Source: Acidobacteriota bacterium (GTDB lineage Bacteria > Acidobacteriota > Vicinamibacteria > Vicinamibacterales > UBA2999). From it: 52,489 nucleotides of DNA. A program made the position numbers and the translations under genes. A model generated the notes under the pieces. The model saw only the letters and a list, made by a program, of their open reading frames with translations, was not told the origin of the DNA and ran no database searches. The DNA lies in the NCBI GenBank assembly GCA_021730945.1, contig JAKFYH010000024.1, positions 1 to 52,489 on the forward strand. The letters are read 5' to 3'. Shown here piece after piece: positions 25,243 to 52,433 of the stretch (within the stretch, counting starts at the first letter, position 1; each line of letters starts with the position of its first letter).

Positions 25243-25700
25243 TGTCTCGAGACGAGGCCGTCCGGTTCGTCGAGCACGCACGCAGCGTGGGCCAGAGCGT
25301 CGTGTTCACGAATGGCGTCTTTGACGTGCTGCACCCCGGCCACGTTCGCTATCTCCGGGATGCCCGTGCTCTTGGCGACGTCCTGATCGTCGGTGTCAAC
25401 AGCGACCGCTCTGCGCGCGCGCTGGGCAAGGCGCCGGATCGTCCGATCAACCCGGAACCCGAACGCGCTGAACTGCTGGAAGCGCTGGCGTCGGTCGATG
25501 CGGTGGTGATATTCGACGAAGATACCCCGCACGCCATCATTACCGCCCTGCAGCCAGACATCCTCGTGAAGGGCGCCGACTGGGACGCCGGTGCCATCGT
25601 CGGCCGCGACGTCGTCGAGGCGCGCGGCGGCCGGGTCGTCCGCATTGCCTTGGCGCCAGGCTACTCGACGACGGCGATCGTCGAGCGCATCCGACGCTAA
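25242..25700 (+). CDS. rfaE2: D-glycero-beta-D-manno-heptose 1-phosphate adenylyltransferase
   Basis: A 152-aa nucleotidyltransferase that makes ADP-heptose precursor for the LPS core. The cytidylyltransferase-like motif FTNGVFDVLHPGHVRYL with HPGH is at residues about 21-37, followed by NSDRSARALGKAPDRPIN and ILVKGADW. The kinase half of two-domain HldE is absent, so it is the stand-alone type. The GTG start overlaps the stop codon of the exporter ATPase gene (TAGTG). Together they indicate a Gram-negative envelope with heptose-containing LPS. Confidence 0.92.
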   Translation: MSRDEAVRFVEHARSVGQSVVFTNGVFDVLHPGHVRYLRDARALGDVLIVGVNSDRSARALGKAPDRPINPEPERAELLEALASVDAVVIFDEDTPHAIITALQPDILVKGADWDAGAIVGRDVVEARGGRVVRIALAPGYSTTAIVERIRR

Positions 25701-25789
25701 CCGGGATCCGGGATCCGGGGTCCGGGATCCGGGCGAAAAAAGCTCTTGTGCGCGGACCCCGGGTCCCGGGTCCCGGATCCCGGATCCCG
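25701..25789. repeat. GGATCC-type composite repeat A (full element)
   Basis: The left arm is a run of CCGGGATC words (25701-25733), then a 22-nt core beginning CGAAAAAAGCTCTTGTGCGC (25734-25755), then a right arm of inverted words CCCGGGTCCCGGATCCCG (to 25789). The arms can pair into a long GC stem with the core as loop. The core is identical in copies E and L. Confidence 0.88.
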
Positions 25790-25815
25790 TCCGTGAGACA
25801 CTAGAAAGTTCGTGC

Positions 25816-30596: not shown

Positions 30597-31088
30597 ATGG
30601 AATCAGCCTGGTTCGCACTGTGGACGCGCTCGCGGCACGAGAAGCAGGTCCGCGACCAGTTGGAGAAGAAGGCGGTTGAGGTCTTCCTGCCGACGATTGG
30701 CAAGTGGAGCCACTGGAAGGACCGCAAGAAGAAGATCGACTGGCCGTTGTTCCCGGGTTACGTCTTCGCCCGTTTCGTGCCCGACGAGCGCATCGGCGTC
30801 CTCAAGGTCGATGGTGTCGTCCAAATCATCAGCAACAACGGCATACTGTCGTCGATTCCCGACGAAGAAATCGACAGCATCCGAACGCTGGTGGAAAGCG
30901 AACTGGCGTACGACCCGGTGCCGCTGATCAAGGAAGGGGACATGGTCAAAGTGACACACGGCCCGCTCAGGGGCGTGGTCGGCCGCCTGGTGCGCAAAGG
31001 CGCGCACGCGCGCCTCGTTCTCTCGGTAGACTTGATCGGGCAAGCGGTGGCGGTTGAAGTAGATGCGTCGGACGTGAAACCTTACTGA
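30597..31088 (+). CDS. NusG paralogue (UpxY/RfaH-like transcription antitermination protein)
   Basis: A 163-aa protein with a NusG N-terminal domain (WFALWTRSRHEKQVRDQLEKKAVEVFLPT, then LFPGYVFARFVPDER) and a C-terminal KOW domain (EGDMVKVTHGPLRGVVGRLVRKGAHARLVLSVDLIGQAVAVEVDASDV). NusG-family proteins bind RNA polymerase and limit pausing or termination. It is not in the secE-rplK context of housekeeping nusG, and the TRSRHEKQV start is typical of paralogues dedicated to long surface-polysaccharide operons. Genes for polysaccharide export and sugar synthesis lie on both sides, which supports that role. Confidence 0.82.
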   Translation: MESAWFALWTRSRHEKQVRDQLEKKAVEVFLPTIGKWSHWKDRKKKIDWPLFPGYVFARFVPDERIGVLKVDGVVQIISNNGILSSIPDEEIDSIRTLVESELAYDPVPLIKEGDMVKVTHGPLRGVVGRLVRKGAHARLVLSVDLIGQAVAVEVDASDVKPY

Positions 31089-31090
31089 TC

Positions 31091-31182
31091 CGGGGTCCGG
31101 GGCCCGGGGCCCGGGATCCGCGCACAAGAGCTTTTTTCGATCGGACCCCGGATCCCGGATCCCGGATCCCGGGATCCCCGGC
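31091..31182. repeat. GGATCC-type composite repeat E (full element, reverse core)
   Basis: Left arm GGGGTCCGGGGCCCGGGGCC, core at 31118-31139 as the reverse complement (GCGCACAAGAGCTTTTTTCG), right arm CCCCGGATCCCGGATCCCGG. The core matches copies A and L exactly over 22 nt. Confidence 0.88.
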
Positions 31183-31192
31183 AAGTAACACC

Positions 31193-32248
31193 ATGAAGAT
31201 CGGCAATATCGAACTCGACTCGCCGTTTGTCATCTCGCCCATGGCAGGGATGACCGATACGGCCTTCCGCCGCCTGGTGAAGCGCCAGGGCGGCTGCGGG
31301 CTGGTTGTGTCGGAGATGGTGAGCAGCGAGGGGTTGGTGCGCGGCATCGACCGCACCCTCGAGTACGCCGAATACACCGAAGAAGAGCGTCCCGTGTCGA
31401 TCCAGATCTTCGGCGGCGAACCCGCGAAGATGGCTGAGGCGGCGCGCGTGGTCGAAGCCATGGGCGCCGACATCGTCGACGTCAACATGGGCTGCCCGGT
31501 GCCGAAGATTGCCAGGCACAACGCCGGCTGCAGCCTGATGCGTGAGCCCCACCATGCCGCCGAGATCATTGCCGCCATGGCGAAAGCGGTCAAAATCCCC
31601 GTAACCGTCAAGATGCGCAAGGGCTGGGACGATGGCGAGGTGAATGCACCGGAGCTGGCCAAGCGGGTTGAGGCAGCCGGCGCCTCCGCGATTGCCGTGC
31701 ATGGCCGCACCGCGAAGCAGAGTTACAGCGGATTTGCCGATTGGGACGTCGTGGCCGGCATCGCCCGTTCGGTGAGCATTCCGGTGTTTGGGTCGGGCGA
31801 CTGCATCGAGCCCGAAGATATTGTTGCGCGCATGCGTTCGGGCGTCAGCGGTGTGTTCGTCGGCCGCGGCGTATTGCGCAACCCATGGATTCTCTCTCAG
31901 GCGCGCGATCTCATGGCCGGCTTGCCGGCCCGGCCGGTCACTGACGAGGATCGCGGTCGATTCCTGTTCGACTACCTGGCATTGTTGCTGGCCGACGAGA
32001 AGGGCGAGCAAGATGGCTTCAGGCACCTTGTTCTCCAGGCATCAAGCCCCAGGCCTCAAACCAGCAAGGATCGGTGGGTCGTCAACAAGCTGCGCGCCCT
32101 GTGCACCTGGTACACCAAGGGCTTCGAAGGCGGCTCGCAGTTTCGCACCGGCGTGAACGAGGCGAAGTCGGTGGCCGAAGTGGAACAGCTGATCGGGAGC
32201 TTCTTTCTCACGGGATCCCGGATCCCGGAACCCGGAACCCGGGCATGA
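31193..32248 (+). CDS. dusB: tRNA-dihydrouridine synthase DusB
   Basis: A flavoenzyme (351 aa) that reduces uridines in tRNA. The TIM-barrel start FVISPMAGMTDTAFRRL, the signature VDVNMGCPVPKIARHNAGCSLMRE with the catalytic Cys, KMRKGWDD, AVHGRTAKQSYSG and FGSGDC are all present. Residues about 279-289 (LVLQASSPRPQ) are encoded by a CAAGCC stutter and have no counterpart in the family. The last residues (GSRIPEPGTRA) are encoded by GGATCC-type repeat F, which replaces the normal end. The enzyme core is intact. Confidence 0.93.
   Translation: MKIGNIELDSPFVISPMAGMTDTAFRRLVKRQGGCGLVVSEMVSSEGLVRGIDRTLEYAEYTEEERPVSIQIFGGEPAKMAEAARVVEAMGADIVDVNMGCPVPKIARHNAGCSLMREPHHAAEIIAAMAKAVKIPVTVKMRKGWDDGEVNAPELAKRVEAAGASAIAVHGRTAKQSYSGFADWDVVAGIARSVSIPVFGSGDCIEPEDIVARMRSGVSGVFVGRGVLRNPWILSQARDLMAGLPARPVTDEDRGRFLFDYLALLLADEKGEQDGFRHLVLQASSPRPQTSKDRWVVNKLRALCTWYTKGFEGGSQFRTGVNEAKSVAEVEQLIGSFFLTGSRIPEPGTRA
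32211..32243. repeat. GGATCC-type repeat F, forming the 3' end of dusB
   Basis: CGGGATCCCGGATCCCGGAA and CCCGGAACCCGGG supply the last codons of dusB up to the ATGATGCC start of the next gene. Confidence 0.78.
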
Positions 32249-33282: not shown

Positions 33283-33331
33283 ACCCGTCCGAATGCCAGA
33301 AAACGGCCTAACCACACACAACCGGCTATTG

Positions 33332-33361
33332 AGTCATATTTTGTCATGTCAATATATGACT
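33332..33361. promoter_or_regulatory. Inverted repeat upstream of fcl
   Basis: AGTCATAT (33332-33339) and ATATGACT (33354-33361) form an exact 8-bp dyad with a 14-bp AT-rich spacer inside the 177-bp gap before fcl. It could be an operator; nothing in the window identifies its binder. Confidence 0.35.
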
Positions 33362-33459
33362 TGCGCGACTGTTGGCAAGTGTGGCAGGATGCCAATCCAA
33401 GGCTGATACGGCTCCCGCGGCATACGTTTGCGGGCGGTCGCCGCCGATAAGTAGCTGCG

Positions 33460-34422
33460 ATGGCTGAAATGCGCTTGAACTCACGGATCTACGTCGCCGG
33501 GCATCGCGGCCTCGTGGGATCAGCCATTGGCCGGCGTCTCGACCAACTCGGTTACGACAATGTCCTGACGGCGACTCGCGATCAGCTCGATCTGCGCGAT
33601 CAGGCCGCGGTGAACTATTGGTTCAAGGCCAACCGCCCCGAGTTCGTGTATTTGGTGGCGGGCACCGTCGGCGGGATTCTGGCCAACTCGACGCGGCCCG
33701 CCGAGTTCATCTACGACAACATGATGATTCATGCCACGGTGGTGCACTCGGCCCACCTGTTCGGCGTGACCAAGCTCCTTTACCTCGGCAGCTCCTGCAT
33801 CTATCCCCGGAACTGTCCGCAACCCATGCCGGAAGAAGCGCTGTTGACGGGCCAACTCGAGCCTACCAACGAGTCCTACGCGATCGCGAAGATCGCGGGC
33901 ATCAAATTGTGCCAGGCCTACCGCACGCAGTATGGCAGCGACTTCATCTCCGCCATGCCGACCAACCTGTATGGTCCGCACGACAATTTCGATCTCACCA
34001 GTTCACACGTGCTGCCGGCGATGATCCGCAAGTTCCACGACGCGAGGATGGACGGCCGGACCGAGGTCATGATTTGGGGGACGGGCTCGCCCCGGCGCGA
34101 GTTCCTTCACGTCGACGATCTGGCTGACGCGTGCGTGTTCCTGATGCAACGCTACCAGGATGCCATGCACATCAACGTTGGCACCGGCGAAGAGGTGGCC
34201 ATTGCCGACCTTGCCGATCTGGTCCGACGCATTGTGCACCCCGGCGCCACCATTGCCTACGACACCACCAAGCCAGACGGGACGCCGCGCAAGCTGCTGG
34301 ACGTCACGCGCCTCCACAACCTCGGGTGGCGTCACCGCACGGCCCTTGAAGAGGGCATCGCGGGCACCTACGCCTGGTTCCTCGAACATCACGCCCAGGC
34401 GCGTGGGGTCACGGTTTCGTAA
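33460..34422 (+). CDS. fcl: GDP-L-fucose synthase
   Basis: An epimerase-reductase (320 aa) converting GDP-4-keto-6-deoxymannose to GDP-L-fucose, a precursor for surface polysaccharide. It is an extended short-chain dehydrogenase: NADP-binding GHRGLVGSAIGRRL at the start, then LGSSCIYPRNCPQPMPEEALLTGQLEPTNESYAIAKIAGIKLC with the catalytic Ser, Tyr and Lys. FLHVDDLADACVFLM and the NVGTGEEV region complete the fold. The companion GDP-mannose dehydratase is not in the window. A second ATG 9 nt downstream is a possible alternative start. Confidence 0.94.
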   Translation: MAEMRLNSRIYVAGHRGLVGSAIGRRLDQLGYDNVLTATRDQLDLRDQAAVNYWFKANRPEFVYLVAGTVGGILANSTRPAEFIYDNMMIHATVVHSAHLFGVTKLLYLGSSCIYPRNCPQPMPEEALLTGQLEPTNESYAIAKIAGIKLCQAYRTQYGSDFISAMPTNLYGPHDNFDLTSSHVLPAMIRKFHDARMDGRTEVMIWGTGSPRREFLHVDDLADACVFLMQRYQDAMHINVGTGEEVAIADLADLVRRIVHPGATIAYDTTKPDGTPRKLLDVTRLHNLGWRHRTALEEGIAGTYAWFLEHHAQARGVTVS

Positions 34423-35153
34423 TGCCACTCCGCGTTGGATTCGATCTCGACGGCACCGTTGCTGACATGTACACGGCCCTGCACAAGGAAGCCCTGACGC
34501 TGTTTGGTGAAGAAGTGCTGGCGCAGTCCGACTACAAGAAGGCGCCCCCGAGCCCAGATGGCGCCGAGGCAGATACTGGCGAACCCGAGGACAGCACCGG
34601 CGCGCTCGCCATGGAGGAATTGCACCTCACGGCCCGCCAGCAGATGCAGCTGTGGGACCACGTCAAGAAGATCGAGAACTTCTGGACCACGCTACCCGAA
34701 CTGGAGCCGGGGATCATCGCGCGCATCGCCAAGACGGCGATGGAACGCCGGTGGGAGATCATCTTCCTGACGACCCGGCCGTCCACCGCGGGCGAGCTCA
34801 CCCAGTTGCAGTCGCAGCGTTGGCTCGATGCGCACGGGTTTCGCTATCCCAGCGTGATGGTGGTGCAACGCTCACGCGGCAAGATCGCCGATGCGCTGCA
34901 GCTCGACGCGTTCGTCGACGACCGTCCCGAGAACTGCCTCGACATTGCGGTGGAGTCGAAAGCGAAGGTCATCCTGGTCTGGCACGGCCACATGAAGGAT
35001 GTGCCGGCCGGCGCTCGCCGCCTCGGTGTCCGCCCGGTGCAGACAATATCGGAAGCGCTCGGCCTGCTCGAACAACTCGACGATGTTCGCAAGAAGCCCG
35101 GACTGCTGCGCTCCTTGAAGCGGGTACTCGGCCAGGAGCCGTCCGGCTCCTGA
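34422..35153 (+). CDS. HAD-superfamily hydrolase, 5'-nucleotidase (NT5C)-like
   Basis: A 243-aa HAD phosphatase. Motif I is FDLDGTVADMY at residues 7-17, motif II the TTR in FLTTRPS (about 126), and the Asp pair FVDDRPENC (about 165) is motif IV. The cap region and overall plan resemble the 5'(3')-deoxyribonucleotidase type. An acidic stretch (PSPDGAEADTGEPEDS, about 44-59) is unusual. The ATG overlaps the fcl stop (TAATG), so it is translated with fcl. The substrate is unknown; a sugar phosphate is possible given the neighbours. Confidence 0.75.
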   Translation: MPLRVGFDLDGTVADMYTALHKEALTLFGEEVLAQSDYKKAPPSPDGAEADTGEPEDSTGALAMEELHLTARQQMQLWDHVKKIENFWTTLPELEPGIIARIAKTAMERRWEIIFLTTRPSTAGELTQLQSQRWLDAHGFRYPSVMVVQRSRGKIADALQLDAFVDDRPENCLDIAVESKAKVILVWHGHMKDVPAGARRLGVRPVQTISEALGLLEQLDDVRKKPGLLRSLKRVLGQEPSGS

Positions 35154-35155
35154 AA

Positions 35156-35497
35156 TTACAGCAGGTCCCGAACCCCGCCGGGTTCTACAATCGTGAAGTC
35201 GTAGACCAGGGCGGCCGCGGCAGCCTCGAAGAAGCGCCGGCCCAAGTCCTGATGTTGAGGATGGTCTAGATAGACCCGCAAGTCTGCCTCGGAATCAAAC
35301 TCGAGGATGGCCGAGTACTCAAAATGCTCGGCCATTTGTGTCTCATAGGGCCGTCCGACCAGGATGCGGCGCCCGATGCGCACGCGCCTGATCTCGGCGA
35401 TGCTGGTGAAGGCGATGCGCATGGCGTCGAGCAGCGCTTCGCGCTCGGCCTCGCCGAGTGTGGACCGCGCCCTCAGCAATACGACGTGCGCGACCAT
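35156..35497 (-). CDS. Dabb-family (stress-responsive alpha/beta barrel) protein
   Basis: A 113-aa protein starting MVAHVVLLRAR. It has the pattern of Dabb dimeric ferredoxin-like barrels: an N-terminal beta strand with VxHVVL, a central SAILEFDSEADLRVYLDHPQHQDL and a C-terminal strand YDFTIVEPG. Members include enzymes and stress proteins, and the function here cannot be told. It converges on the HAD gene with a 2-nt gap. Upstream in-frame codons come from repeat G, so the start was set at MVAHVV. Confidence 0.75.
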   Translation of the reverse strand: MVAHVVLLRARSTLGEAEREALLDAMRIAFTSIAEIRRVRIGRRILVGRPYETQMAEHFEYSAILEFDSEADLRVYLDHPQHQDLGRRFFEAAAAALVYDFTIVEPGGVRDLL

Positions 35498-35501
35498 TAG
35501 A

Positions 35502-35530
35502 CCGGGATCCGGGATCCGGGATCCGGGATC
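35502..35530. repeat. GGATCC-type repeat G
   Basis: Three and a half copies of CCGGGATC with no core, filling the gap between the Dabb gene and the stop of the next minus-strand gene. Confidence 0.75.
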
Positions 35531-36638
35531 ACTTGTCGTCTCCCCCTTTACGTGGCTTGGCCGACCGCGAGCGGATGGCCTCCTTGAAGCGTCCCCACTT
35601 GGCCTTCTTCGCGTCCTTGTACTTCTGCTTGGGATCCTTGTGCTCGCCACCCGGGCGCCACTTGTCGTCGCGCTTGGCTTCAATGCCGAGCGACTTCTTG
35701 TACTCGGCCTTGGGCACCCATTTACGCTTGGGCGCGTCGGGATCACTCCTGGCGAAGCCGGCGTTGGGACCGCCCGGACGAGCATCCGCAGCGGGCGGCC
35801 GCCGGTCTTGCGAGGGTCGAGCCGTGGAGGCGCTCTTTGGCTTCCATTCGAGCTTGTCGGTCTTGCTCTGCGCCCGGGAGCCGCGCGTCATCCCATCATC
35901 AACCTTGGGTGTGTACGACTTTGGCCGGAATGACGCACGGGCTTGATCGCGCGCCGACCCCTTTGAAGGCTGCCACGACGGCTTGTCGTCGCGATCGGCG
36001 GCTGGACGGCGAGACGACGTCGAACCCTTCGGCTTCCACCCGGGTTTACCACCCGAAGCCTTGGCATAGGATGGCTTCTCGCCCCAGCCGGACGCATGAC
36101 CAGGCTCCCTCGGCTTGAACGTGCCCTTCGGCTTCCATTCCGGCTTGCGGTCGCTTCGCGCCTGACCAGAGGGTCTACGCTCCGACCTGTCCGCCGCCGT
36201 TGTTACGATGCCGGAAGCCTTGGCGAAGGAGGGACGATCGTCACGGTCGCCGAACGACTTGCGCGCAGCGCGGGGTTTGTCGTCGGACGGCGTGAACGAA
36301 CCCTTGGGTTTCCACTCGGGCTTGCTGTCCCGAGGTCCAGGGTCCGGGCGAAAAGCGCTCTTGTCCTTGGGTACCCATGCCGGCTTGGCGTCGGTGCGCG
36401 GATCCCGGACCCCAGGTCCCGAACCCCGGCTACCCTCGCGATCGCGTCCGCGGATGGACTCCTGGGCATCGTGGCGCGAGGCCCACAGCTTGCCATTCTG
36501 GAACCACTTCAGTTCAGCGGTGGGCTGCTTCTCCTTCAAGCGATTGAAGGTCGGCATGATGTCTTCGAGGGAACCGGCACGGAAGGCGGTCGGTTGGCCG
36601 TCAACGATGATCGTCCAATACACGTATCTAGGCGGCAC
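35529..36638 (-). CDS. Lys/Arg-rich repetitive protein of unknown function
   Basis: A 369-aa, strongly basic protein. Residues 1-55 look folded (YVYWTIIVDGQPTAFRAGS, DIMPTFNRLKEKQPTAELKWFQNGKLW). The rest is low-complexity, with at least eight variants of the motif KPEWKPKG and several RDDRPS words. Two copies of FAKASG or YAKASGG occur, and a segment encoded by GGATCC-type repeat H covers residues about 68-99. The tail KYKDAKKAKWGRFKEAIRSRSAKPRKGG resembles a nucleic-acid-binding tail; RNA or DNA binding is only a guess. The GTG start at 36638 is chosen because it leaves 18 nt to the divergent pgl start. Confidence 0.65.
   Translation of the reverse strand: MPPRYVYWTIIVDGQPTAFRAGSLEDIMPTFNRLKEKQPTAELKWFQNGKLWASRHDAQESIRGRDREGSRGSGPGVRDPRTDAKPAWVPKDKSAFRPDPGPRDSKPEWKPKGSFTPSDDKPRAARKSFGDRDDRPSFAKASGIVTTAADRSERRPSGQARSDRKPEWKPKGTFKPREPGHASGWGEKPSYAKASGGKPGWKPKGSTSSRRPAADRDDKPSWQPSKGSARDQARASFRPKSYTPKVDDGMTRGSRAQSKTDKLEWKPKSASTARPSQDRRPPAADARPGGPNAGFARSDPDAPKRKWVPKAEYKKSLGIEAKRDDKWRPGGEHKDPKQKYKDAKKAKWGRFKEAIRSRSAKPRKGGDDK
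36332..36437. repeat. GGATCC-type repeat H, inside the Lys/Arg-rich gene
   Basis: AGGTCCAGGGTCCGGGCG is followed by a degraded core (CGAAAAGCGCTCTTGT at 36349-36364), then, after about 30 bp, GCGCGGATCCCGGACCCCAG and GTCCCGAACCCCGG. It is read through as PGVRDPRTD and FRPDPGPRD. An in-frame, diverged full element. Confidence 0.68.
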
Positions 36639-36656
36639 AAAGTATCCTAGCTTGAA

Positions 36657-37361
36657 ATGGAGTTGGTGGTCGCCCGGATCGACGAGCTGCGCCCGCGGCT
36701 CACTGAGGCCTTCGAATCCTGGGCCCACGCAGATGTAGCGGTCACGCCGCAGTCGTGTGCGCTATCTGGTGGCGCCACCGCGTTGATCTTCCTTGGCGCC
36801 CTGCGAAACGCCAACGTCGACTGGTCGCGGATCGCGCTGTTCTGGGCCGACGAACGGGCCGTGCCGGCAGACGACCCGGAAAGCAACTACGGCGTGGCGG
36901 AGCGGATGCTGCTGGGGCCGCTCGGCGCCACGGCGCCGCAGGCGTTTCCGATGTCGTTCGACTTCGCGACGCCCGGCGCGACCAGCCTGGCCACGGCGGC
37001 GATGAAGTACGACGCGACCCTGGCCCGCGAGGTCAAGGGTTCGCTGGATCTCGCGCTGCTCGGTGTCGGGGAGGATGGCCATATCTGCTCGCTCTTCCCC
37101 GGCCACCGCGCCCTGATGGCAGACGACTCGCGGGTGGTCGCGGTCGAAGACGCGCCGAAGCCGCCGCCGCAGCGGCTGACGTTGTCACTGCCGTTTGTGC
37201 TCAGGACGAAGAAGATCTGGCTGATCGCGGTCGGTCCCCGAAAGCTGCCCGTCTTGCAGGCTGCGCTGTCGCGCACGCAACGGGCCACACCGCTGGACTT
37301 ACTCCTGCTCCAGGCCAAGGATGTGACGGTGTTTACGGACCAGGTGATTCGGAGGGTGTGA
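36657..37361 (+). CDS. pgl: 6-phosphogluconolactonase
   Basis: Hydrolyses 6-phosphogluconolactone in the pentose phosphate pathway. The 234-aa protein has LSGGATALIFLGAL near residue 38, WADERAVPADDPESNYGVAERMLL, and the signature LLGVGEDGHICSLFPGH with the conserved Asp and His. Length is normal. It diverges from the Lys/Arg-rich gene; no glucose-6-phosphate dehydrogenase gene is adjacent. Confidence 0.92.
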   Translation: MELVVARIDELRPRLTEAFESWAHADVAVTPQSCALSGGATALIFLGALRNANVDWSRIALFWADERAVPADDPESNYGVAERMLLGPLGATAPQAFPMSFDFATPGATSLATAAMKYDATLAREVKGSLDLALLGVGEDGHICSLFPGHRALMADDSRVVAVEDAPKPPPQRLTLSLPFVLRTKKIWLIAVGPRKLPVLQAALSRTQRATPLDLLLLQAKDVTVFTDQVIRRV

Positions 37362-37362
37362 A

Positions 37363-37409
37363 CCGGGACCCGGGATCCGGGATCCGGGATCCGGGATCCG
37401 GGATCCGGG
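37363..37409. repeat. GGATCC-type repeat I
   Basis: Five tandem copies of CCGGGATC after one diverged copy. It lies between the pgl stop and the stop of the four-helix-bundle gene. It faces repeat J in opposite orientation. Confidence 0.85.
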
Positions 37410-37411
37410 CA

Positions 37412-37783
37412 TCACGGCTGGTCTTCGCTCACTCCCAGCGAGGCAATCAGCTTGTTCAGCATCAGGCCCACTCGTGCGGCAAGTTCTCGTGTTGGTGCGA
37501 TCGACTCACGAGTTGCCAGGCCCAGCCGCACCGCGAGTTCAAGTTGAGTCTGCAGCTCCGCCTCCGATCCCCTCGCAACCCCGAGGTGATAGCAGTAGCT
37601 TCGCTGGCTCCGACAGTGACCCTCCGCGATGTTCGAAGGAATTGATACCGATGCCCTGCGGAGCTGAGACCTCAGGCCGAATGTCTCCGCTGGCGGAAAC
37701 CGCTCCGACAGCGCATAGACCCGCTCCACGAGCGTCATCGACACTTGCCACACTTCAAGGTCACGAAAGGATTTGATCTCCAT
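37412..37783 (-). CDS. Four-helix-bundle protein (S23/IVP family)
   Basis: A 123-aa protein starting MEIKSFRDLEVWQVSMTLVERVYAL, with SERFPPAETFGLRSQLRRASVSIPSNIAEGHCRSQ, the hallmark of the four-helix-bundle family first seen as an ORF in 23S rRNA intervening sequences and common in many genomes. Function is unknown, though the family often travels with repeats. It is flanked by inverted GGATCC-type repeats I and J. It lies on the minus strand downstream of the start of no obvious operon; the start is set at the conserved MEIKSF. Confidence 0.85.
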   Translation of the reverse strand: MEIKSFRDLEVWQVSMTLVERVYALSERFPPAETFGLRSQLRRASVSIPSNIAEGHCRSQRSYCYHLGVARGSEAELQTQLELAVRLGLATRESIAPTRELAARVGLMLNKLIASLGVSEDQP

Positions 37784-37904
37784 GCGCACGTGAGGGTGCA
37801 CGGTGGATGCCGTCAAGAATTGTTCGAGATCCGGAAGCCTCGAACCCGCGACATGGCCATTTCTGAGATCTGATGGAGCTCGAGTCGTGGCACTTTCTGA
37901 CATG

Positions 37905-37962
37905 CCCGGACCCCGGACCCCGGATCCCGGACCCCGGATCCCGGATCCCGGATCCCCGATCC
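37905..37962. repeat. GGATCC-type repeat J
   Basis: About seven copies of CCCGGATC or CCCCGGAC, the reverse orientation of repeat I, between the four-helix-bundle gene and the response-regulator stop codon. I and J enclose a 495-bp segment holding only that small gene. Confidence 0.83.
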
Positions 37963-39327
37963 CTACATCCTCTTCAGCTTCTCCACCAGAGTGGTTCGCT
38001 TCAACCCGAGCAGTCTCGCGGCGGCGCCACGGTTCTGCGCCGTTCTAAGCAGCGCGCGATCGATCAGGTCCTTCTCGATCTGGGCGATGAGTGCAGGCAG
38101 GTCGATTCCTGCTTCGGGCAGACCCAGCGACGGCGTGACCGACTCTTCTGCCGCGGCCTGCAAGTCGGGTGGCAAGTCGCCGACCTCAATCTGACTGCGG
38201 CCACCGAGCATGGCCATTGCGCGTTCGATGGCGTTTTCGAGTTGGCGGACGTTGCCCGGCCACGCGTGCGCCATCAAGCGGCGCATGGCTTCCTGCGACA
38301 CGGTCGGGATCCGGGGTCCGGCGTCCGGGTCGGAGAATTTCCGAACGAAGCTCTGCACCAGTGGCGGAATGTCGTCGGGCCGTTCGCGCAGCGGCGTGAG
38401 GTGCACGGCGATTACGTTCAACCGGTAGTAGAGGTCCTCGCGGAAGGTTCCCTCCTTCACCATCTTCAGGAGGTCGGCATTGGTGGCCGCGACAATCCGG
38501 ACATCAACCTTGATGGTGCGGTTCTCGCCGATGCGTTCGAATTCGCGCTCCTGCAGCACGCGCAACATCTTCATCTGCAGCGCCATCGGCATGGTGCCGA
38601 CCTCGTCCAGGAACAGCGTGCCCTTGTCGGCTTGCTCAAGCCGGCCCTGGCGCATGGCGACGGCGCCGGTGAAGGCGCCGCGCGCGTGGCCGAAGAGCTC
38701 GGCGTCGAGCAGCGTCTCAGGAATCGCACTGACGTTGATCGCGACGAACCGTTCGCGGTGGCGGGGACTGGTCTGGTGAACCGCGCGCGCCACCATCTCC
38801 TTGCCGGTGCCGGTCTCACCGCTAATCAGAATGGTCGCCGTGGTGGGCGCCACGGTCTCGATCAACTGGAACAGCGCGCGCATGGCGGCGCTCCTGCCGA
38901 CCATGGACCCCATGCCAAACCGCTCGTCAAGCTGCTGGTGGAGATAGGCGTTCTCGCTCTTGAGCCGCTTCTGCTCGAGCGCGTTGGTCAGCACGTGCAT
39001 CAGTTCGTCGAACTGAAACGGCTTCGCGATGAAGTCGGAGGCGCCGCGCTTGATGACGTCGACCGCGTCCTTCACGGTGCCGTAACCGGTGACGACAATG
39101 GCGACGATGCCCGGGTAGCGGGTGAGCGCGGCATCGATCACCTGGCGTCCGTCGACGCCCGGCAGGCGAAGGTCCGAGACGATGACGTCAAAGGCAAAGC
39201 CGTCGAGCGCGGTCAGCGCAGACTCGCCGTCCGCGGCCTGGACCACCTCGAAGCCGTGGTCGATAAGTCGTTCAGCTACAACACTTCGCAGCGATTCCTC
39301 ATCGTCTACGAGCAGGAGGTGGGGCAT
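37963..39327 (-). CDS. Sigma-54-dependent response regulator (NtrC/AtoC type)
   Basis: A 454-aa enhancer-binding activator. The receiver domain (1-120) has the phosphorylatable Asp in VSDLRLPGVDG and Lys in IAKPF. The AAA+ domain has Walker A GETGTGKE, the sigma-54 contact loop GAFTGA and Walker B GTLFLDEVG. The C-terminal Fis-type helix-turn-helix ends AARLLGLKRTTLVEKLKRM. Residues about 333-341 (FSDPDAGPRIP) come from GGATCC-type repeat K. A sigma-54-like promoter with upstream dyads lies 0.7 kb away before the sigma factor gene, a plausible target. The partner kinase may be the hybrid kinase downstream. Confidence 0.94.
   Translation of the reverse strand: MPHLLLVDDEESLRSVVAERLIDHGFEVVQAADGESALTALDGFAFDVIVSDLRLPGVDGRQVIDAALTRYPGIVAIVVTGYGTVKDAVDVIKRGASDFIAKPFQFDELMHVLTNALEQKRLKSENAYLHQQLDERFGMGSMVGRSAAMRALFQLIETVAPTTATILISGETGTGKEMVARAVHQTSPRHRERFVAINVSAIPETLLDAELFGHARGAFTGAVAMRQGRLEQADKGTLFLDEVGTMPMALQMKMLRVLQEREFERIGENRTIKVDVRIVAATNADLLKMVKEGTFREDLYYRLNVIAVHLTPLRERPDDIPPLVQSFVRKFSDPDAGPRIPTVSQEAMRRLMAHAWPGNVRQLENAIERAMAMLGGRSQIEVGDLPPDLQAAAEESVTPSLGLPEAGIDLPALIAQIEKDLIDRALLRTAQNRGAAARLLGLKRTTLVEKLKRM
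38304..38331. repeat. GGATCC-type repeat K, inside the response-regulator gene
   Basis: CGGGATCCGGGGTCCGGCGT followed by CCGGGT is read on the minus strand as DPDAGPRIP, at a variable point just before the C-terminal part of the AAA+ domain. A short copy, no core. Confidence 0.72.
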
Positions 39328-39426
39328 GGGTTGTCAGAATATTGACGGGGATGCACGCGGGTGTCAAGGCCTGCACGACTAATCTCAACTTGGCAGACTC
39401 CGATACACCCTTTGGAGGCAACCCCC

Positions 39427-39624
39427 GTGGAACGGCAAACAGTAAGCATCATGAAGGCATGCGAGATGGTCGGCGTCAGCCGGCGGACGATCTACAACTG
39501 GATCGCGGCAAACAAGGTTGAGTACTTGCGAACTGCTGGAGGCAGCATCCGCATCTTCGTCGACACCTTGTGGCGTGAACCGGATGGCACCAAGCATCCC
39601 AACAGCCCCGACGCGGTCGCGTAG
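39427..39624 (+). CDS. Small helix-turn-helix DNA-binding protein (excisionase/BldC-like)
   Basis: A 65-aa protein, RQTVSIMKACEMVGVSRRTIYNWIAANKVEYLRTAGGSIRIF, with the winged-helix fold of MerR/excisionase-type binding domains (HTH at about 8-27, wing at about 33-43). A GGAGG sequence 9-10 nt before the GTG favours this start. It diverges from the sigma-54 regulator. Such stand-alone domains act as developmental or stress regulators in some bacteria; the role here is unknown. Confidence 0.75.
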   Translation: MERQTVSIMKACEMVGVSRRTIYNWIAANKVEYLRTAGGSIRIFVDTLWREPDGTKHPNSPDAVA

Positions 39625-39658
39625 GCCGCCCAGCAGGGACGGCCTACGAGTGAAGACC

Positions 39659-39853
39659 ATGACATCCGTTGACTCGAAGGAGCTGTTGCACCGGCTCAAC
39701 AATCAGCTCGGCGTGATTCTCGCGCACGCCGAGTTGCTTGAGACCAAGGCCCAGGACGCCGCGCAAAAGGCGCGGGCGTCGCAGGTCGTGAGCGCCGCGC
39801 TCCAGGCGATGGCGGTATCGCGAGAGCTGCGCGAGACCGTCGCAGATCGGTAG
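39659..39853 (+). CDS. Orphan histidine-kinase dimerisation (DHp)-like domain protein
   Basis: A 64-aa protein, ELLHRLNNQLGVILAHAELLETKAQ, that resembles the H-box helix of histidine kinases (HxxNN followed by LGVILAHAELL) but has no ATP-binding domain. His14 is in the place of the phospho-accepting His. It could be a phosphotransfer or dimer-disrupting partner of the nearby two-component proteins. An in-frame GTG 9 nt upstream is an alternative start. It may be translated with the small HTH gene, 34 nt upstream. Confidence 0.6.
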   Translation: MTSVDSKELLHRLNNQLGVILAHAELLETKAQDAAQKARASQVVSAALQAMAVSRELRETVADR

Positions 39854-40014
39854 CGGCCGGCGCCCCTTGCCGGCCCCGCCCGTTCGGGCCGGCCGCCGCC
39901 GACTCGACCACCAAGGCACCCCCCAAGCAAGATCGTAAGTTCAGCCCCAAAATTAATTTCAGCGTCAAATATCAGACATCAACAGGCGAAGTTGCGTCAA
40001 TAATTTGGCGTCAC

Positions 40015-40036
40015 TGAGGTCATGCGGCTGACCTCA
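40015..40036. promoter_or_regulatory. Perfect dyad, candidate enhancer-binding site
   Basis: TGAGGTCA, a 6-bp spacer and TGACCTCA form an exact dyad centred about 144 bp before the predicted transcription start. This distance is typical of binding sites of sigma-54 activators. A second dyad (GTTGC, 5 bp, GCAAC) is at 40046-40060. Confidence 0.5.
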
Positions 40037-40142
40037 CATCCTTGCGTTGCACTGCGCAACCATGTGTAAGTATCAGACTTTACAGATAGTTAGGTCGCCT
40101 CAAGAGTGATGGTGCACACAGCTGCCGGCTGTTACACACCTC

Positions 40143-40158
40143 AGGCACACCATTTGCC
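40143..40158 (+). promoter_or_regulatory. Sigma-54 (-24/-12) type promoter
   Basis: AGGCACACCATTTGCC fits TGGCACNNNNNTTGCA closely. GG at 40144-40145 and GC at 40156-40157 have the required spacing. The start of transcription would be near 40169, leaving a 17-nt leader with ACGGAG before the ATG. Confidence 0.55.
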
Positions 40159-40185
40159 TTAGGTCAGGCAACGGAGATTCTTGAG

Positions 40186-41313
40186 ATGACCCCGATGACT
40201 GACAAAGCGAATCCGCGGGTAGAGGCCGGCATCCCTTTTGTGGAAGCTCTGGCCCGGCGCATGGCGGCGACCATGCCGCACTCGATCGACCTGAGCGATC
40301 TGGTGCAGGACGGCGTGATCGGCCTGATCGACGCGGCCCACCGCTTTGACGATTCACGCGGCATCAAGTTTGAGACCTTCGCCGAACGGCGCATCCGTGG
40401 CGCGATGATTGACGCGCTGCGCAAGGACGCCTGGCCACGCGGTGTCCGGCGGGTTCGGCGCGAACTGGAAGCCGCCCGCGAGAAGCTGCGCGCGTCACTG
40501 GGTCACGAGCCCTCGCTCGCGGACCTGGCCCAGGAGATCGGCTCCGACGAGAAGCGCCTGGGCAAGACCATCGTGCGGATCAACACCATTGAGTCGACTT
40601 CGCCGTTCTCGAGCGCCGAGAACGTGGACGAGTCGCAACTGCCCGCGGTGATGGTGCCCGCCGAGCCGGAGCGCCCCGACCTGCAGTACGAACGCGATGA
40701 GGTGAAGGGCCGCGTCCGCAACGCGATCGCCACGCTGCCACCGCGCGAGCAGCGCGTGATCGCGCTCTATTACTACAACGAAGCCACGATGAAGGATATC
40801 GGCTCGGAGCTGGGCGTGAACGAATCGCGGGTCTCGCAGTTGCACGCGCGCGCCATCAAGCGCCTGCGTGAAGCGCTGGGCGCCGAGACCACGCCGATCG
40901 CGGCGTCGGCTGCACTGCGCGAGGTGTTCGCGGCCTTCGAAGCCGGGAACGTCGTCGCCGCCGTCAAGTCGTCGCCGTTCACCGAGACCACCGGCGGCAA
41001 GTCGATGGCCAAGGCGTCGCTCCCCGCCGCCGCCGACCGTTACGGCGACCAGATCCGGGCCAGCGTCAGCGGGCCCGAGTCTGACACGCGCGTCTCACAC
41101 GCCGCGCAGCAACGCGCGGGGCTGGTGCTGGTGTCGCATCAGGACAGCGTATCGCGCGCGGCCCGCAGCAAGTCGCCCAGCCTGAAGGGCTTGGACAACC
41201 AGCGGCAAGCGGTCTCTTCGAGGAAGCGCTCAGCATCGGTGCCGGCGACGTCGCCGGTAACGAAAATGACGCGCCGCGCCAATGCCGGCGTGGCGGCGGC
41301 CATCGCGCGATAG
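40186..41313 (+). CDS. RNA polymerase sigma factor, FliA/WhiG/SigB-like, with long C-terminal tail
   Basis: An alternative sigma-70-family factor, 375 aa. Region 2 is DLVQDGVIGLIDAAHRFDDSRGIKFETFAERRIRGAMIDALRKDAWPR, characteristic of the FliA group. Region 3 follows, and region 4 is LPPREQRVIALYYYNEATMKDIGSELGVNESRVSQLHARAIKRLR, ending near residue 230. The remaining 145 residues are a low-complexity, Ser/Ala/Arg-rich tail not found in typical FliA. The last 58 codons overlap the convergent kinase gene. The tail may be real or a readthrough product of a lost stop. A sigma-54-like promoter precedes it, so it may be a middle tier in a sigma cascade. Confidence 0.88.
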   Translation: MTPMTDKANPRVEAGIPFVEALARRMAATMPHSIDLSDLVQDGVIGLIDAAHRFDDSRGIKFETFAERRIRGAMIDALRKDAWPRGVRRVRRELEAAREKLRASLGHEPSLADLAQEIGSDEKRLGKTIVRINTIESTSPFSSAENVDESQLPAVMVPAEPERPDLQYERDEVKGRVRNAIATLPPREQRVIALYYYNEATMKDIGSELGVNESRVSQLHARAIKRLREALGAETTPIAASAALREVFAAFEAGNVVAAVKSSPFTETTGGKSMAKASLPAAADRYGDQIRASVSGPESDTRVSHAAQQRAGLVLVSHQDSVSRAARSKSPSLKGLDNQRQAVSSRKRSASVPATSPVTKMTRRANAGVAAAIAR

Positions 41314-42677: not shown

Positions 42678-42680
42678 CAG

Positions 42681-43169: not shown

Positions 43170-43207
43170 GCCAATAACTTACACCACTCGCGGGGCGCTT
43201 TCTTTCT

Positions 43208-43235: not shown

Positions 43236-43247
43236 GCAGCTGTCGTC

Positions 43248-48575: not shown

Positions 48576-50612
48576 ATGCGCATGACCCTGGCAGTAGCGG
48601 CGTTTCTGGCGGCCCTGGCGACAAGCGCCGTCGCCCAAAGCCCGCGACCCGTGACATTTGACGATGTGCTGAACGTGAAGGCCGTGGGCAGCGCCACGAT
48701 TTCCCCGGATGCCACCCAGGTGTTGTACACCGTCCGCGAGTGGGTTGCCGAGAAGGACCGCATGGAGGCGCGGACGCACGTGTGGATGGTGGCGGCCAAC
48801 GGCAACACGCCAGCCCGCCAGATCACCTTTGGCGAGCGCGGCGAGAGCCAGCCGCAGTGGTCTCCCGACGGCCGCTTCATCAGCTTTGTCGCCGTCCGCG
48901 GCAGCGGCGCCGAGGACCGGCCCCAGCTCCACGTCATGCGAACGGACGGCGGCGAGGCGTGGCAGCTGACCACCGCCAAGGAGGGGTTGTCGAACCAGCA
49001 GGCGTATTCATGGGCGCCCGACAGCACCCGCATCGCGTTTGTCACCACCGACCCGCGAAGCATGAACGACGACGCGGCCATCAAGCGGCGCGACGACGAG
49101 CGCGTGTTCGAGGGCGATTTCCGTTACTCGCATGTCTGGGTGGTTGATCTGGCCACCAAGACCCACACACGCATCAGCGAAGGCACCGCCTACACCGTGT
49201 CGGGCGCGCCGTCCTGGGCGCCCGACAGTCAGCGTTTCGTGTTTGGCGCCGGCGACACGCCAATGCTGCGCGACAACCGCCGCGATATCTACCTGGCGAC
49301 ACTGTCGCCCCCGCGGATCGACAAGATCAGCACCAACTTTGGCAGCGACACCTCGCCGCGCTGGTCGCCCGACGGCAAGTCGATCGCCTGGACCGCCGAA
49401 CCGAACACCGGAGCGCCGTTGCCGGACGGCACCGCCCCTGGCGTGACCATGCAGTCGAAGTTGATGCTTTACGACGTGGCAGCGAAGACGATCAAGGATG
49501 TGTCGTCGCCGGGGTTTGATACCGATGCCGGCAACCCGGTGTGGACCGCCGAGGGCAATCGGGTGATGTTCGTGGCCGGCAAGCGCGCCTACAACGAAGC
49601 CTTCGCCTACGACCTCACGAGTGGCCGCTACACGCAGTTGAGCTCGAGGAAAACGCTGCAGGGCGCCTCCATCAGCAAGGACGGCCGCACCATTGCGCTG
49701 ACGATGGATTCCCCGAATTCCGCGTCAGAGGTCTACGTCACCGATCCGGCGTTCCAAACCTTTCGCAAGCTGACCAACACCAATCCCCAGCTGGCCGAGC
49801 TGGCGCAGGGCGAGACCGAAGTCGTCACCTGGAAGGGCGCGGACGGGATGGAAGTTGAGGGCGTGCTGCTGAAGCCGGTCGGCTTCCGCGCCGGCACTCG
49901 TTACCCGACACTAGTGGTGGCGCACGGCGGCCCGGCCGGCGCGTACGTCAACGGCTTCCGTCTCGGCGGCCTCGAGGGCGGACAAGTCTGGGCGAACAAG
50001 GGCTGGGCGGTGTTCTATCCCAATCCGCGCGGCAGCACGAACTACGGCGAGAAGTTCCTGCAGCACAACCTCAACGACTGGGGCGGCGGCGACTTCACGG
50101 ACATCATGACCGGCGTCGATGCGCTGGTTGCGCGCGGCATCGCCGACCCGGACAAGCTGGCGCACATTGGCTGGAGCTACGGCGGATATATGACGGCGTG
50201 GGTGATTACCCAGACCACTCGCTTCAAGGCGGCCATGGTCGGAGCCGGCCTGACCAATATGTGGAGCATGTACGGAACCAACGACATTCCCAGTGTGCTG
50301 ATCAGCTACTTTGGGGGCATCCCCAACGCCAAGACGCTGCCGCTCTACCTCAACCGATCAGCGATGACCCACATCGACAAGGTGACGACGCCAACCCTGA
50401 TTCTGCACGGGGCGCAGGATGAACGAGTGCCGGTCGGGCAGGCGCAGGAATTGTTCCGCGGCCTGAAAGATCGCGGCAAGACGACCGAACTGGTGTTTTA
50501 CCCGCGTGAAGGTCACGGCATTAGCGAGTACTATCATCAGAAGGACCGCATGCAGCGGATCTACGACTGGGTCACCAAGCACACCCTGGCCCCGTCGTCG
50601 AGCAGCCAATAG
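48576..50612 (+). CDS. S9-family prolyl oligopeptidase-like peptidase, exported
   Basis: A 678-aa serine peptidase. The signal peptide is MRMTLAVAAFLAALATSAVAQ. The N-terminal half is a WD40/TolB-like beta propeller (PDATQVLYTVREW, QPQWSPDGRFISFVA, SPRWSPDGKSIAWT), and the C-terminal half is an alpha/beta hydrolase. The catalytic triad reads Ser534 in GWSYGGY, Asp615 in QDERVP and His647 in EGHGI. It probably cleaves peptides (dipeptidyl or acylaminoacyl type) in the periplasm. GGAGG lies 7 nt before the ATG. It diverges from the FabZ-like gene across a 39-bp gap. Confidence 0.93.
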   Translation: MRMTLAVAAFLAALATSAVAQSPRPVTFDDVLNVKAVGSATISPDATQVLYTVREWVAEKDRMEARTHVWMVAANGNTPARQITFGERGESQPQWSPDGRFISFVAVRGSGAEDRPQLHVMRTDGGEAWQLTTAKEGLSNQQAYSWAPDSTRIAFVTTDPRSMNDDAAIKRRDDERVFEGDFRYSHVWVVDLATKTHTRISEGTAYTVSGAPSWAPDSQRFVFGAGDTPMLRDNRRDIYLATLSPPRIDKISTNFGSDTSPRWSPDGKSIAWTAEPNTGAPLPDGTAPGVTMQSKLMLYDVAAKTIKDVSSPGFDTDAGNPVWTAEGNRVMFVAGKRAYNEAFAYDLTSGRYTQLSSRKTLQGASISKDGRTIALTMDSPNSASEVYVTDPAFQTFRKLTNTNPQLAELAQGETEVVTWKGADGMEVEGVLLKPVGFRAGTRYPTLVVAHGGPAGAYVNGFRLGGLEGGQVWANKGWAVFYPNPRGSTNYGEKFLQHNLNDWGGGDFTDIMTGVDALVARGIADPDKLAHIGWSYGGYMTAWVITQTTRFKAAMVGAGLTNMWSMYGTNDIPSVLISYFGGIPNAKTLPLYLNRSAMTHIDKVTTPTLILHGAQDERVPVGQAQELFRGLKDRGKTTELVFYPREGHGISEYYHQKDRMQRIYDWVTKHTLAPSSSSQ

Positions 50613-50613
50613 A

Positions 50614-50648
50614 CCCTGATCCCTGATCCCTGATCCCTGATCCCTGAT
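50614..50648. repeat. Five exact CCCTGAT repeats directly before a start codon
   Basis: Five exact copies of CCCTGAT begin 2 bp after the S9 peptidase stop and end at the base before the ATG of the phosphatase gene, replacing any Shine-Dalgarno sequence. Confidence 0.85.
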
Positions 50649-52433
50649 ATGACTGAACCCGCGCCGCACGGCGCCGCCAGCAGCTCCGCCTCTGACGCGG
50701 AACTGCTGGCCATCCTCGCAGAACTCGGGCGCGAGGTCAGTTCCGTGCTCGACCTGGATGCCCTGCTCGAGCGAATCCCGCACCTGATATCGCGCCTCAC
50801 CAACTTCACCGTCTTTTCGGTCTACCTGCTGGACGAGGCGCGCGAAGAACTAAGCATTGCCTACGCGGTGGGTTATCCCGACGAGATTGTCAGGCACTTC
50901 ACCCTGCAGGTCGGCCAGGGCATCGTCGGCACGGCGGTCGCCGAGCAGCGGCCGATCCTGTTGAATGACGTCGATGCCGACGCGCGCTACCTGGCGGTGG
51001 TGCCGGGCGCCAAGTCGCAACTGGTGGTTCCGCTTCGCAACAAGGGCAAGGTCATTGGCGCGCTCAACCTGCTGAGCGACAAGGCCGGCGCCTTTACCGA
51101 GCGCGATGAGTGGATCCTGCGGCAGTTTGGCGCCCACGTCGCCCAGGGTATTGCCACCGCCCGCCTGTTCGAGTCGGAACGCGAGTACGCCGAGACGCTC
51201 GAAACGCTCGCCGAGATCGGCCGCGAGATGACGTCGATTCTCGATCCCGACGAATTGCTGACCCGGCTGGCGCACCTGATCAAGCGGGTGATCGACTACC
51301 GCATCTTCGGCATCCTGCTGTTGGACGACGATACCGGCGTCCTCGAGATGAAAGTGGCCATCAAGTACGGTGATGACCCGCGGGCGATGGATCCGGTCAA
51401 GCTGGGCGAAGGATTGGTGGGTCATGCCGCGCTCCACAAGGAAGTCGTGCTGGTTCCCGACGTGACCAAGGACCCCCGCTACATCCACGCCGTACCGGGC
51501 GTGCGATCAGAGCTGGTGGTGCCGCTGATGCTGAAGGACCGTTGCATCGGGGTGTTTGACCTCGAGAGTCCCGACCGCGACGCCTTCAACAAGAAGCACG
51601 TCAAGCTGTTGACCCTGCTGGCATCGGAAGCGGCGGTGGCACTTGAAAACGCCCGGCTCTACGAGTCGGTGCGCGCCAGCGAGGCCCGCTTCGAGAAGGA
51701 ACTGCGCTTTGCCCAGCGGGTGCAGATGGCCCTGCTGCCGCAGGAACTGCCCAAGCGCCTGCGCGGCGTGGACGTGGCCTGGCACTTCGACCCGGCGCGC
51801 GAGCTCGGTGGCGACCTGTGCGATTTCCTGTCGCCCGAGCCCAGCACGCTGGTCGTGGCGGTCGGTGACGTGTCAGGCAAGGGCGTGCCGGCGGCGCTCT
51901 ACAGCGCGGCGATCGGCGAAATGGTGCGTGGGCGCACGTTCCGGCGACGGCTCGAAAAAGCGCGCAGCACGCCCGCCACTGTGCTGGCCGGCATGAATCG
52001 CATTCTCCACGAGCGCAACCTCGAGGAGTATTACTGCACGCTGTGCTACGCGATGTTCGAGTTCAAGAAGCAGATCGTGACGTTCGCCAATTCCGGGCTG
52101 CCCTACCCGGTGCGCTGCACGGGTGGCAAGGCCACGCAAATTGACATGCCGGGTGTGCCGCTCGGTTCGTTCGGCAGTTCCTCCTACGACGAGGTGGAAG
52201 TGCCGCTTTCGCCGGGTGACGTGTTCGTGCTGTGCTCGGACGGTATCAGCGAGGCGTTTGACGAGGCGGGGATGGAATTTGGCGCGCCACGGTTGATTGA
52301 GGTGATCGAGCGCACGCACCTGCAGCCGGCGAAGGAAATCGTGGGCGAGATCTTCGCCGCCGTGCAGTTGTTTTGCGGTGACGCCGAACAGTCAGACGAC
52401 CGCACGGTGGTGGTCGTCAAGATCAATCAGTAG
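50649..52433 (+). CDS. GAF-GAF-PP2C (SpoIIE/RsbU-like) serine phosphatase
   Basis: A 594-aa signalling protein. Two GAF domains (about 20-175 and 190-345) are each preceded by LAELGREVSSVLD or LAEIGREMTSILD helices. A coiled segment (EARFEKELRFAQRVQMALLPQELP) leads to a PP2C-type phosphatase domain (about 375-590). Metal-binding acids are in ELGGDLCDF, VGDVSGKGVPAALYSA, LCSDGISEAFD and SDDRTVVVVK. Such enzymes usually dephosphorylate an anti-anti-sigma factor and so release a sigma factor. No anti-sigma gene is in the window. Confidence 0.93.
   Translation: MTEPAPHGAASSSASDAELLAILAELGREVSSVLDLDALLERIPHLISRLTNFTVFSVYLLDEAREELSIAYAVGYPDEIVRHFTLQVGQGIVGTAVAEQRPILLNDVDADARYLAVVPGAKSQLVVPLRNKGKVIGALNLLSDKAGAFTERDEWILRQFGAHVAQGIATARLFESEREYAETLETLAEIGREMTSILDPDELLTRLAHLIKRVIDYRIFGILLLDDDTGVLEMKVAIKYGDDPRAMDPVKLGEGLVGHAALHKEVVLVPDVTKDPRYIHAVPGVRSELVVPLMLKDRCIGVFDLESPDRDAFNKKHVKLLTLLASEAAVALENARLYESVRASEARFEKELRFAQRVQMALLPQELPKRLRGVDVAWHFDPARELGGDLCDFLSPEPSTLVVAVGDVSGKGVPAALYSAAIGEMVRGRTFRRRLEKARSTPATVLAGMNRILHERNLEEYYCTLCYAMFEFKKQIVTFANSGLPYPVRCTGGKATQIDMPGVPLGSFGSSSYDEVEVPLSPGDVFVLCSDGISEAFDEAGMEFGAPRLIEVIERTHLQPAKEIVGEIFAAVQLFCGDAEQSDDRTVVVVKINQ

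Follow-up and report, generated by a model that had tools for sequence, protein, structure and literature searches.

An S23-family gene between cognate heptamer arrays: a probable copy of a small IVS-like element outside rRNA

The locus described here raises the question of why a gene of the S23 family, known from the intervening sequences (IVSs) of 23S rRNA, should lie between two other protein-coding genes with inverted repeats at both of its ends, and whether gene and repeats together form a unit that can move. The window, i.e. the whole stretch of 52,489 nucleotides that was analysed, has the following features at this place:

36657..37361, plus strand: pgl (6-phosphogluconolactonase), left border of the putative insertion site (TIGR01198, 165.1 bits; orthologues in same-genus and same-family genomes)
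37358..37413, plus strand: downstream heptamer array of the S23 gene; read on the S23 coding strand, it is C-rich (period-7 scan)
37412..37903, minus strand: S23 / 23S_rRNA_IVP four-helix-bundle ORF, 163 aa (PF05635, TIGR02436, AlphaFold model)
37903..37965, minus strand: upstream heptamer array of the S23 gene; read on the S23 coding strand, it is G-rich (GGGATCC) (period-7 scan)
37963..39327, minus strand: sigma-54 response regulator, right border (Pfam Response_reg, Sigma54_activat, HTH_8)

A sequence-only reading had reported an S23-family gene bracketed by inverted repeats, and this was confirmed by profile searches and by the two opposed CCGGGAT arrays. The ORF scored 106.3 bits against PF05635 23S_rRNA_IVP (cut-off 33.8) and 99.9 bits against TIGR02436 (cut-off 24); it is the one PF05635 match in the window, and the whole genome has 8. 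The span first given for the gene, 37412-37783, covers the conserved domain when translation is taken to start at an inner ATG; the full ORF is 37412-37903 on the minus strand (163 aa). Similarly, the repeat first described as GGATCC-type does contain GGATCC within its rotations, but the actual unit of both flanking arrays is the heptamer CCGGGAT. The program TRF placed the upstream array at 37905-37963 (8.4 copies) and the downstream array, which is its reverse complement, at 37363-37409 (6.7 copies; inverted arms I2 and I3), and the inverted pair I2 has arms of 53 nt that are 91% complementary and 489 nt apart. The two arrays fill the space from the pgl stop codon to the stop codon of the response regulator. 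Since the upstream arm is G-rich and the downstream arm C-rich on the S23 coding strand, the two arms can pair in a transcript and leave the ORF in the loop of a long stem; RNA folding of the unit transcript gave such a stem (z -8.25 compared with 20 shuffles). A tandem repeat scan of the window found 9 arrays of period 7 and 4 of its harmonic, period 14; the remaining periods between 4 and 13 gave zero arrays, as did period 7 in 40 dinucleotide shuffles of the window. In the source genome, intergenic tandem heptamers occur in many copies, with 36 overlapping pattern matches over 9 contigs.

The link to rRNA IVSs drawn in the sequence-only reading holds for the architecture and not for the location. 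According to the available sections of PMC4990558, the 23S rRNA IVS of Coxiella burnetii has an S23p ORF, of the same protein family as the window's gene, in the loop of a terminal-inverted-repeat stem, an arrangement also found in the window unit, and tandem heptamers (GACAGAT) precede the Coxiella ORF. An IVS lies in an rRNA gene, whereas the window unit is intergenic, between pgl and the response regulator, and an Rfam scan of window positions 30000-45000 matched no family, rRNA included. The window unit also differs from an IVS in that its arms are long heptamer arrays and the same word occurs elsewhere in the genome.

An AlphaFold model of the 123-aa S23 domain consists of four helices (mean pLDDT 91.9), and its best structural matches were 2gsc (XCC0516 of Xanthomonas campestris) and 2rld (S23 family, Bacteroides). 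The paper on XCC0516 reportedly speaks of five four-helix bundles in its title. Weaker matches were obtained with the DGR accessory protein Avd (8ub7 and 4dwl; E-values 0.004-0.05, query TM about 0.74-0.81), so that the model suggests a common fold. The homology of PF05635 and Avd has already been noted, and Avd works with a reverse transcriptase (PMC10053308, available sections); the direct neighbours of the S23 gene, pgl and the response regulator, include no reverse transcriptase.

Other S23 genes were checked for flanking repeats, as the sequence-only reading had proposed, and many were found to have them in the 37-locus, 80-locus and replicate sets described below; the arrangement of S23 gene and heptamer array is general across bacteria. 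The first set comprised the 8 loci of the source genome and 29 loci of relatives (one best per genome); a period-7 array lay within about 600 bp at 27 of these 37 loci, other periods reached at most 2 loci, the harmonic 14 excepted, and the same scan of control loci found arrays around PIN genes in 1 of 30 cases and around pgl in 5 of 29. A second set was drawn from GTDB species genomes and consists of the best 80 of 583 confirmed candidate loci, ranked by similarity to the window's S23 protein, a choice that favours close family members. These loci span Acidobacteria, Planctomycetes, Chloroflexi, Clostridia, Bacteroidetes, Proteobacteria, candidate phyla and others. Strict period-7 arrays were present within 300 bp at 44 of the 80 loci against 3 of 138 control windows 1.5 kb away; 17 loci had them on both sides and 36 had none, and among the other periods 8 was found at 8 loci, 16 at 6, 15 at 3, and 4-6 and 9-13 at no more than 1 each. 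At a looser threshold (15 of 21), arrays were detected in 107 of 153 S23 flanks and in 11 of 137 far windows, and within the intergenic gaps of the 80 loci they occupied 35 of 101 S23-adjacent gaps versus 17 of 231 others (Fisher p 3e-9). A location in rRNA was rejected as the explanation of the array-free loci, as an Rfam scan of 20 of these 36 loci returned two riboswitches and no rRNA.

Ten plasmid loci, nine of them cyanobacterial, were picked among the 20 listed of 33 records; two-sided arrays were present at 8 of the 10 at a threshold of 17 of 21, and the strict threshold gave any array at 8 and arrays on both sides at 6. A replicate in the family of Pseudoxanthomonas wuyuanensis had arrays at 18 of 30 loci and at 0 of 58 far windows, which were placed 1.0 kb instead of 1.5 kb away because the replicate loci are shorter; one replicate locus (L346) coincides with L128 of the 80-locus set, and two others (L357 and L360) have identical arrays. 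Six relatives rich in S23 hits had an array at 11 of 40 loci, 6 of which are shared with the 37-locus set. The pooled set of 161 loci, from which 6 of those 40 loci were omitted as repeats of earlier ones, had an array at 81 of 134 loci with an HMM score of at least 80 and at 4 of 27 below 80; the association fades in distant family members. Some S23 genes have flanks of other kinds, such as GGCGC-rich repeats (L002), an inverted 8-mer (L110) and purine-rich runs (L116).

The arrays have, with few exceptions, a constant polarity. Upstream arrays were G-rich in 31 of 31 cases and downstream arrays C-rich in 33 of 35 in the 80-locus set, the corresponding counts being 12 of 12 and 17 of 17 in the replicate and 63 of 66 and 69 of 76 in the pooled 161 loci. 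Furthermore, the two arms of an S23 locus are reverse complements of one heptamer, and this heptamer varies among loci. The mean inverted alignment score of the arms was 29.8 at the 17 two-sided loci and 7.7 for mismatched loci; for the 42 arm pairs of the pooled set the values were 28.7 and 9.0, and in both tests 0 of 10000 permutations reached the observed value. In the pooled set, the cognate arm was the best match for only 24 of the 42 upstream arrays. In the 80-locus set, inverted flank similarity exceeded the 95% null in 59 of 72 full-flank loci and the 99% null in 35. Co-evolution of S23 protein and unit was considered and set aside, the correlation between protein and unit similarity being weak (Mantel rho 0.11, reached by 3 of 500 permutations).

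The synteny of pgl and the regulator was then compared in relatives. The pgl search matched in 43 of 60 relatives, and the 9 best orthologues (from 7 same-genus and 2 same-family genomes) were examined; none had an S23 match near pgl. Wherever the stretch of a relative extends as far as the regulator, as in 8 of the 9, pgl adjoins it; the gap measures about 12 to 409 bp and is no longer than 63 bp in five relatives, and none of these gaps holds a strict period-7 array. The ninth relative (L021) has a short heptamer array and other sequence beside pgl, with no S23 match. Among the gaps, that of L022 contains a 14-base tandem repeat, two heptamers long and partly inverted, and that of L019 a palindromic sequence. 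Since S23 is absent from the surroundings of all 9 orthologues and pgl and the regulator are neighbours in 8, the S23 segment was probably gained at this site in the source genome; the unoccupied site thus lends comparative support to the earlier idea that the unit could move. A second unoccupied site was found in cyanobacteria: Nostoc edaphicum carries an S23 gene between nrdB and nrdA with heptamer arrays as its borders, and in Calothrix sp. NIES-4105 nrdB and nrdA are 40 bp apart with no heptamer array visible between them. Occupied and unoccupied states, the mark of a mobile element, were hence observed at two sites, the comparisons being between related genomes of different species.

For most of the units tested, the cognate word is in excess in the genome that carries it beside an S23 gene. 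Words were counted in 60 genomes as overlapping matches of three tandem copies, a measure in which long arrays weigh more, and the first three words (AGTAGGC, GGGATCA and GACGGCA) had been picked for clear arrays at their S23 loci. AGTAGGC had 180 matches in the genome with the corresponding S23 flank and no more than 10 in each of the 59 others (5 in G024, a genome without an S23 hit), and GACGGCA had 13 in its own genome and 0 in 59 others. GGGATCA had 130 in its own genome, the first of 60, 86 in G036 and 30 in G023, both with an S23 locus of this unit, and 28 in the source genome, whose 8 S23 loci have no GGGATCA arrays. CCGGGAT, the window's unit, came third of 60 with 15 matches (G006 had 40 and G034 17), which counts against a strict rule that the word is the genome's own; the cognate word ranked first for the other three of these four units. 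A 15-base pattern of a further unit, GGGGACC, had 100 and 25 matches in two genomes with that S23 flank and 0 in 10 others. The reversed-pattern control had 11 matches in G052 for GGGATCA and was uninformative for GACGGCA, as the reversed word is a rotation of GACGGCA.

The sampled genomes without S23 hits contain almost no arrays. In the contig starts of the first family, 18 genomes without an S23 hit had 1 array in 269 kb and 41 genomes with a hit had 33 arrays in 627 kb; with the 3 S23-flanking arrays removed the comparison was 30 versus 1 (binomial p 3e-4), and at least one array was present in 16 of 41 versus 1 of 18 genomes (Fisher p 0.011). In the second family, 20 of the 31 genomes that lack S23 matches were sampled and had 0 arrays in 342 kb, and 20 of the 29 that have such matches gave 6 in 341 kb; arrays were present in 0 of 20 versus 5 of 20 genomes (Fisher p 0.047). 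Over both families, S23-adjacent arrays excluded, there was 1 array in 610 kb without S23 hits and 36 in 968 kb with them; these densities leave out L256 and sample contig starts, and their statistics ignore kinship.

Several known systems resemble parts of this picture. STRR are the heptamer repeats of cyanobacteria, and in the REP/REPIN system a RAYT gene is flanked by hairpin repeats that are also present throughout the genome. The window's repeat differs from that of the latter in being a tandem heptamer array, and no transposase, RAYT (Y1) or other, was recognised in the unit, where the S23 ORF matches PF05635 only and the two other overlapping ORFs have no match. The G-quadruplex heptamer repeats of Xanthomonas and Nostoc are, as here, intergenic heptamer arrays, with 70 and 75 convergent heptamer pairs in two Xanthomonas genomes (PMC4692102, available sections), and GGGATTC, a unit of the same type as that of Xanthomonas, flanks S23 genes in our replicate. 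The same sections describe the heptamers as generally not linked to mobile elements, leave their role open and contain no mention that we found of S23, helix bundles or XCC0516. The TAACTGA repeats of Beggiatoaceae are likewise intergenic heptamers, present in several phyla, and no mention of S23 or of a helix bundle was found in the available sections of that report (PMC4679880). In cas loci, 23S_rRNA_IVP genes have been described beside cas4 and cas6 in a paper whose available sections showed no mention of heptamers or tandem repeats (PMC3936711); the same location was found in our L108 and L113, where heptamer arrays are present on the flanks of the S23 copies. As far as the available sections go, earlier papers cover the two halves apart, namely heptamers upstream of the Coxiella IVS ORF and convergent pairs in Xanthomonas, and in searches of the open-licence literature no paper was recognised as joining S23 genes with heptamer arrays outside rRNA.

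We propose, with a probability of about 60%, that 37358-37965 is a copy of a widespread small IVS-like element outside rRNA, in which an S23 gene is held in a stem loop of its cognate heptamer. The heptamer would be the cognate word of the element, and gene-less arrays and hairpins would be its non-autonomous copies or traces, like the REP/REPIN hairpins that accompany a RAYT gene. The association of S23 gene and repeats is shown by the surveys above; we infer that the S23 protein acts on the repeats, and likewise the mode of movement: the protein, as a structural relative of Avd and XCC0516, may bind the heptamer in DNA or RNA, and such binding, together with host or trans-acting enzymes, may copy or seed the arrays. 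On this view, the IVSs of rRNA would be this element inserted into an rRNA helix. Several observations weigh against the proposal: no enzyme was recognised in the unit; CCGGGAT ranks third; GGGATCA and AGTAGGC have matches in the source genome and in G024, respectively, without a corresponding S23 locus; the association fades in distant family members, and 36 of the 80 loci are array-free; the cognate arm is often not the best match in the pooled set; hairpin loops in Pseudoxanthomonas look mostly unrelated; carA/carB is a shared and hence perhaps stable site; and unit similarity follows protein similarity weakly. A wider and more tentative proposal, to which we give odds rather below even, is that S23 proteins make and spread heptamers, one word each, without a transposase of their own, and that IVSs, STRR and the Xanthomonas repeats are one system. 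Each S23 protein would recognise one seven-base word and seed convergent arrays of that word genome-wide. The G-rich strand runs 3' towards the junction on both sides, a polarity that would fit a telomere-like process in which both 3' ends of a break are extended by G-rich repeats and then joined. If this is true, the function of the S23 protein and the origin of bacterial heptamer repeats become one testable problem, linking two unexplained genome features, the scattered seven-base repeats and the 23S-intervening-sequence protein; the pairing of array and gene would also predict, from sequence alone, a DNA or RNA target word for many S23 proteins.

The main rival reverses the order of events. 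Arrays would arise first, through slippage or otherwise, and form hairpins in whose loops a parasitic S23 gene settles; the S23 protein would not make the arrays, and the parallel would be the rRNA IVSs, which replace the tetraloop of rRNA helices. Gene-less hairpins are indeed common, rRNA IVSs do sit in former tetraloops (PMC4990558, available sections), Rehm et al. mention the proposal that heptamers stem from polymerase slippage (PMC4692102, available sections), and the short array beside pgl without S23 in L021, as well as the 14-base tandem repeat in the L022 gap, also speaks for this order. However, strict arrays are absent from the gap of the 8 other relatives, and no array can be seen between the two Calothrix genes, so that arrays and gene appear together at these two sites. 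In addition, the sampled genomes without S23 hits are almost array-free, and slippage leaves the constant polarity unexplained. We consider this order of events unlikely, although it is the strongest competitor of the IVS-like element.

It is less probable still that S23 is an ordinary RNA-binding protein of operons, with the arrays as its cis regulatory or processing sites, and that neither moves. What recommends such a role is the location of S23 genes between linked genes, together with a modelled fold that resembles a DGR subunit. In addition to the nrdB/nrdA pair, carA/carB is an S23 site in L126, L128 and L189 and in L343, L345 and L347 of the replicate (the neighbour families were confirmed by Pfam for L128), and S23 lies between cas6 and cas4 in L108 and L113; by Pfam, its neighbours are biotin-carrier and biotin-carboxylase genes in Dokdonella (L151), and in Azonexus (L137) they are the genes of phosphoglycerate kinase and pyruvate kinase. 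Nevertheless, the sites vary among genomes and unoccupied sites exist, the unit differs from locus to locus, and the heptamers of S23 flanks recur at many other places in the genome. As carA/carB is occupied in several genera, old insertions of the proposed element can be stable. Among the carA/carB loci, L189 differs in its heptamer (AGAGGCC) and clearly also in its S23 protein, and in L128 the heptamer array runs into the end of carA and supplies its last codons.

The sequence-only reading had also held that the unit could invert. Recombination between the inverted arrays, which are long inverted repeats, would flip the S23 gene, but the two further ORFs overlapping the unit matched no Pfam family, so that no recombinase was recognised and the claim is left unsupported; we regard inversion as very improbable. 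The constant polarity has no bearing on it, since inversion would keep the polarity of the arrays. Lastly, a chance meeting of an S23 gene with common intergenic repeats, suggested by the many heptamer arrays in the window, is rejected because separate samples show the arrays to be enriched at S23 loci, constant in polarity and paired as cognates, and because the shuffles are array-free.

Gene-less pairs of convergent arrays are frequent, and the window contains these further heptamer features, to which no strand was assigned:

25698..25791: gene-less hairpin in which two convergent arrays of the CCGGGAT type enclose the loop GAAAAAAGCTCTTGTGCGCG (period-7 scan)
31086..31177: second gene-less hairpin, with the loop GAAAAAAGCTCTTGTGCGCG in inverted orientation (period-7 scan)
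32210..32244: single heptamer array (period-7 scan)
35499..35533: single heptamer array (period-7 scan)
38305..38329: degenerate heptamer stretch, in frame, inside the response-regulator gene
50610..50651: single array with another unit, GGGATCA (period-7 scan)

The 20-base loop GAAAAAAGCTCTTGTGCGCG has 4 copies in the genome (25735-25754, 31119-31138 and 52456-52475 of the window, and positions 25-44 of contig C46), two inside heptamer hairpins and two near contig ends. The loops of the gene-less hairpins in Pseudoxanthomonas are, by eye, mostly unrelated, which is not expected of simple deletion derivatives; an origin of gene-less hairpins as deletion derivatives with conserved loops was therefore rejected as a general explanation. 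The degenerate stretch in the response-regulator gene falls in the interdomain linker of the protein, and in two relatives (L019 and L022) the same linker has in-frame insertions of approximately 25-27 residues with heptamer arrays in their DNA. Other tandem repeats in the window have longer units, i.e. 37 bases (also 73 and 110) at 13651-13861, and 18 bases at both 14208-14326 and 45058-45128.
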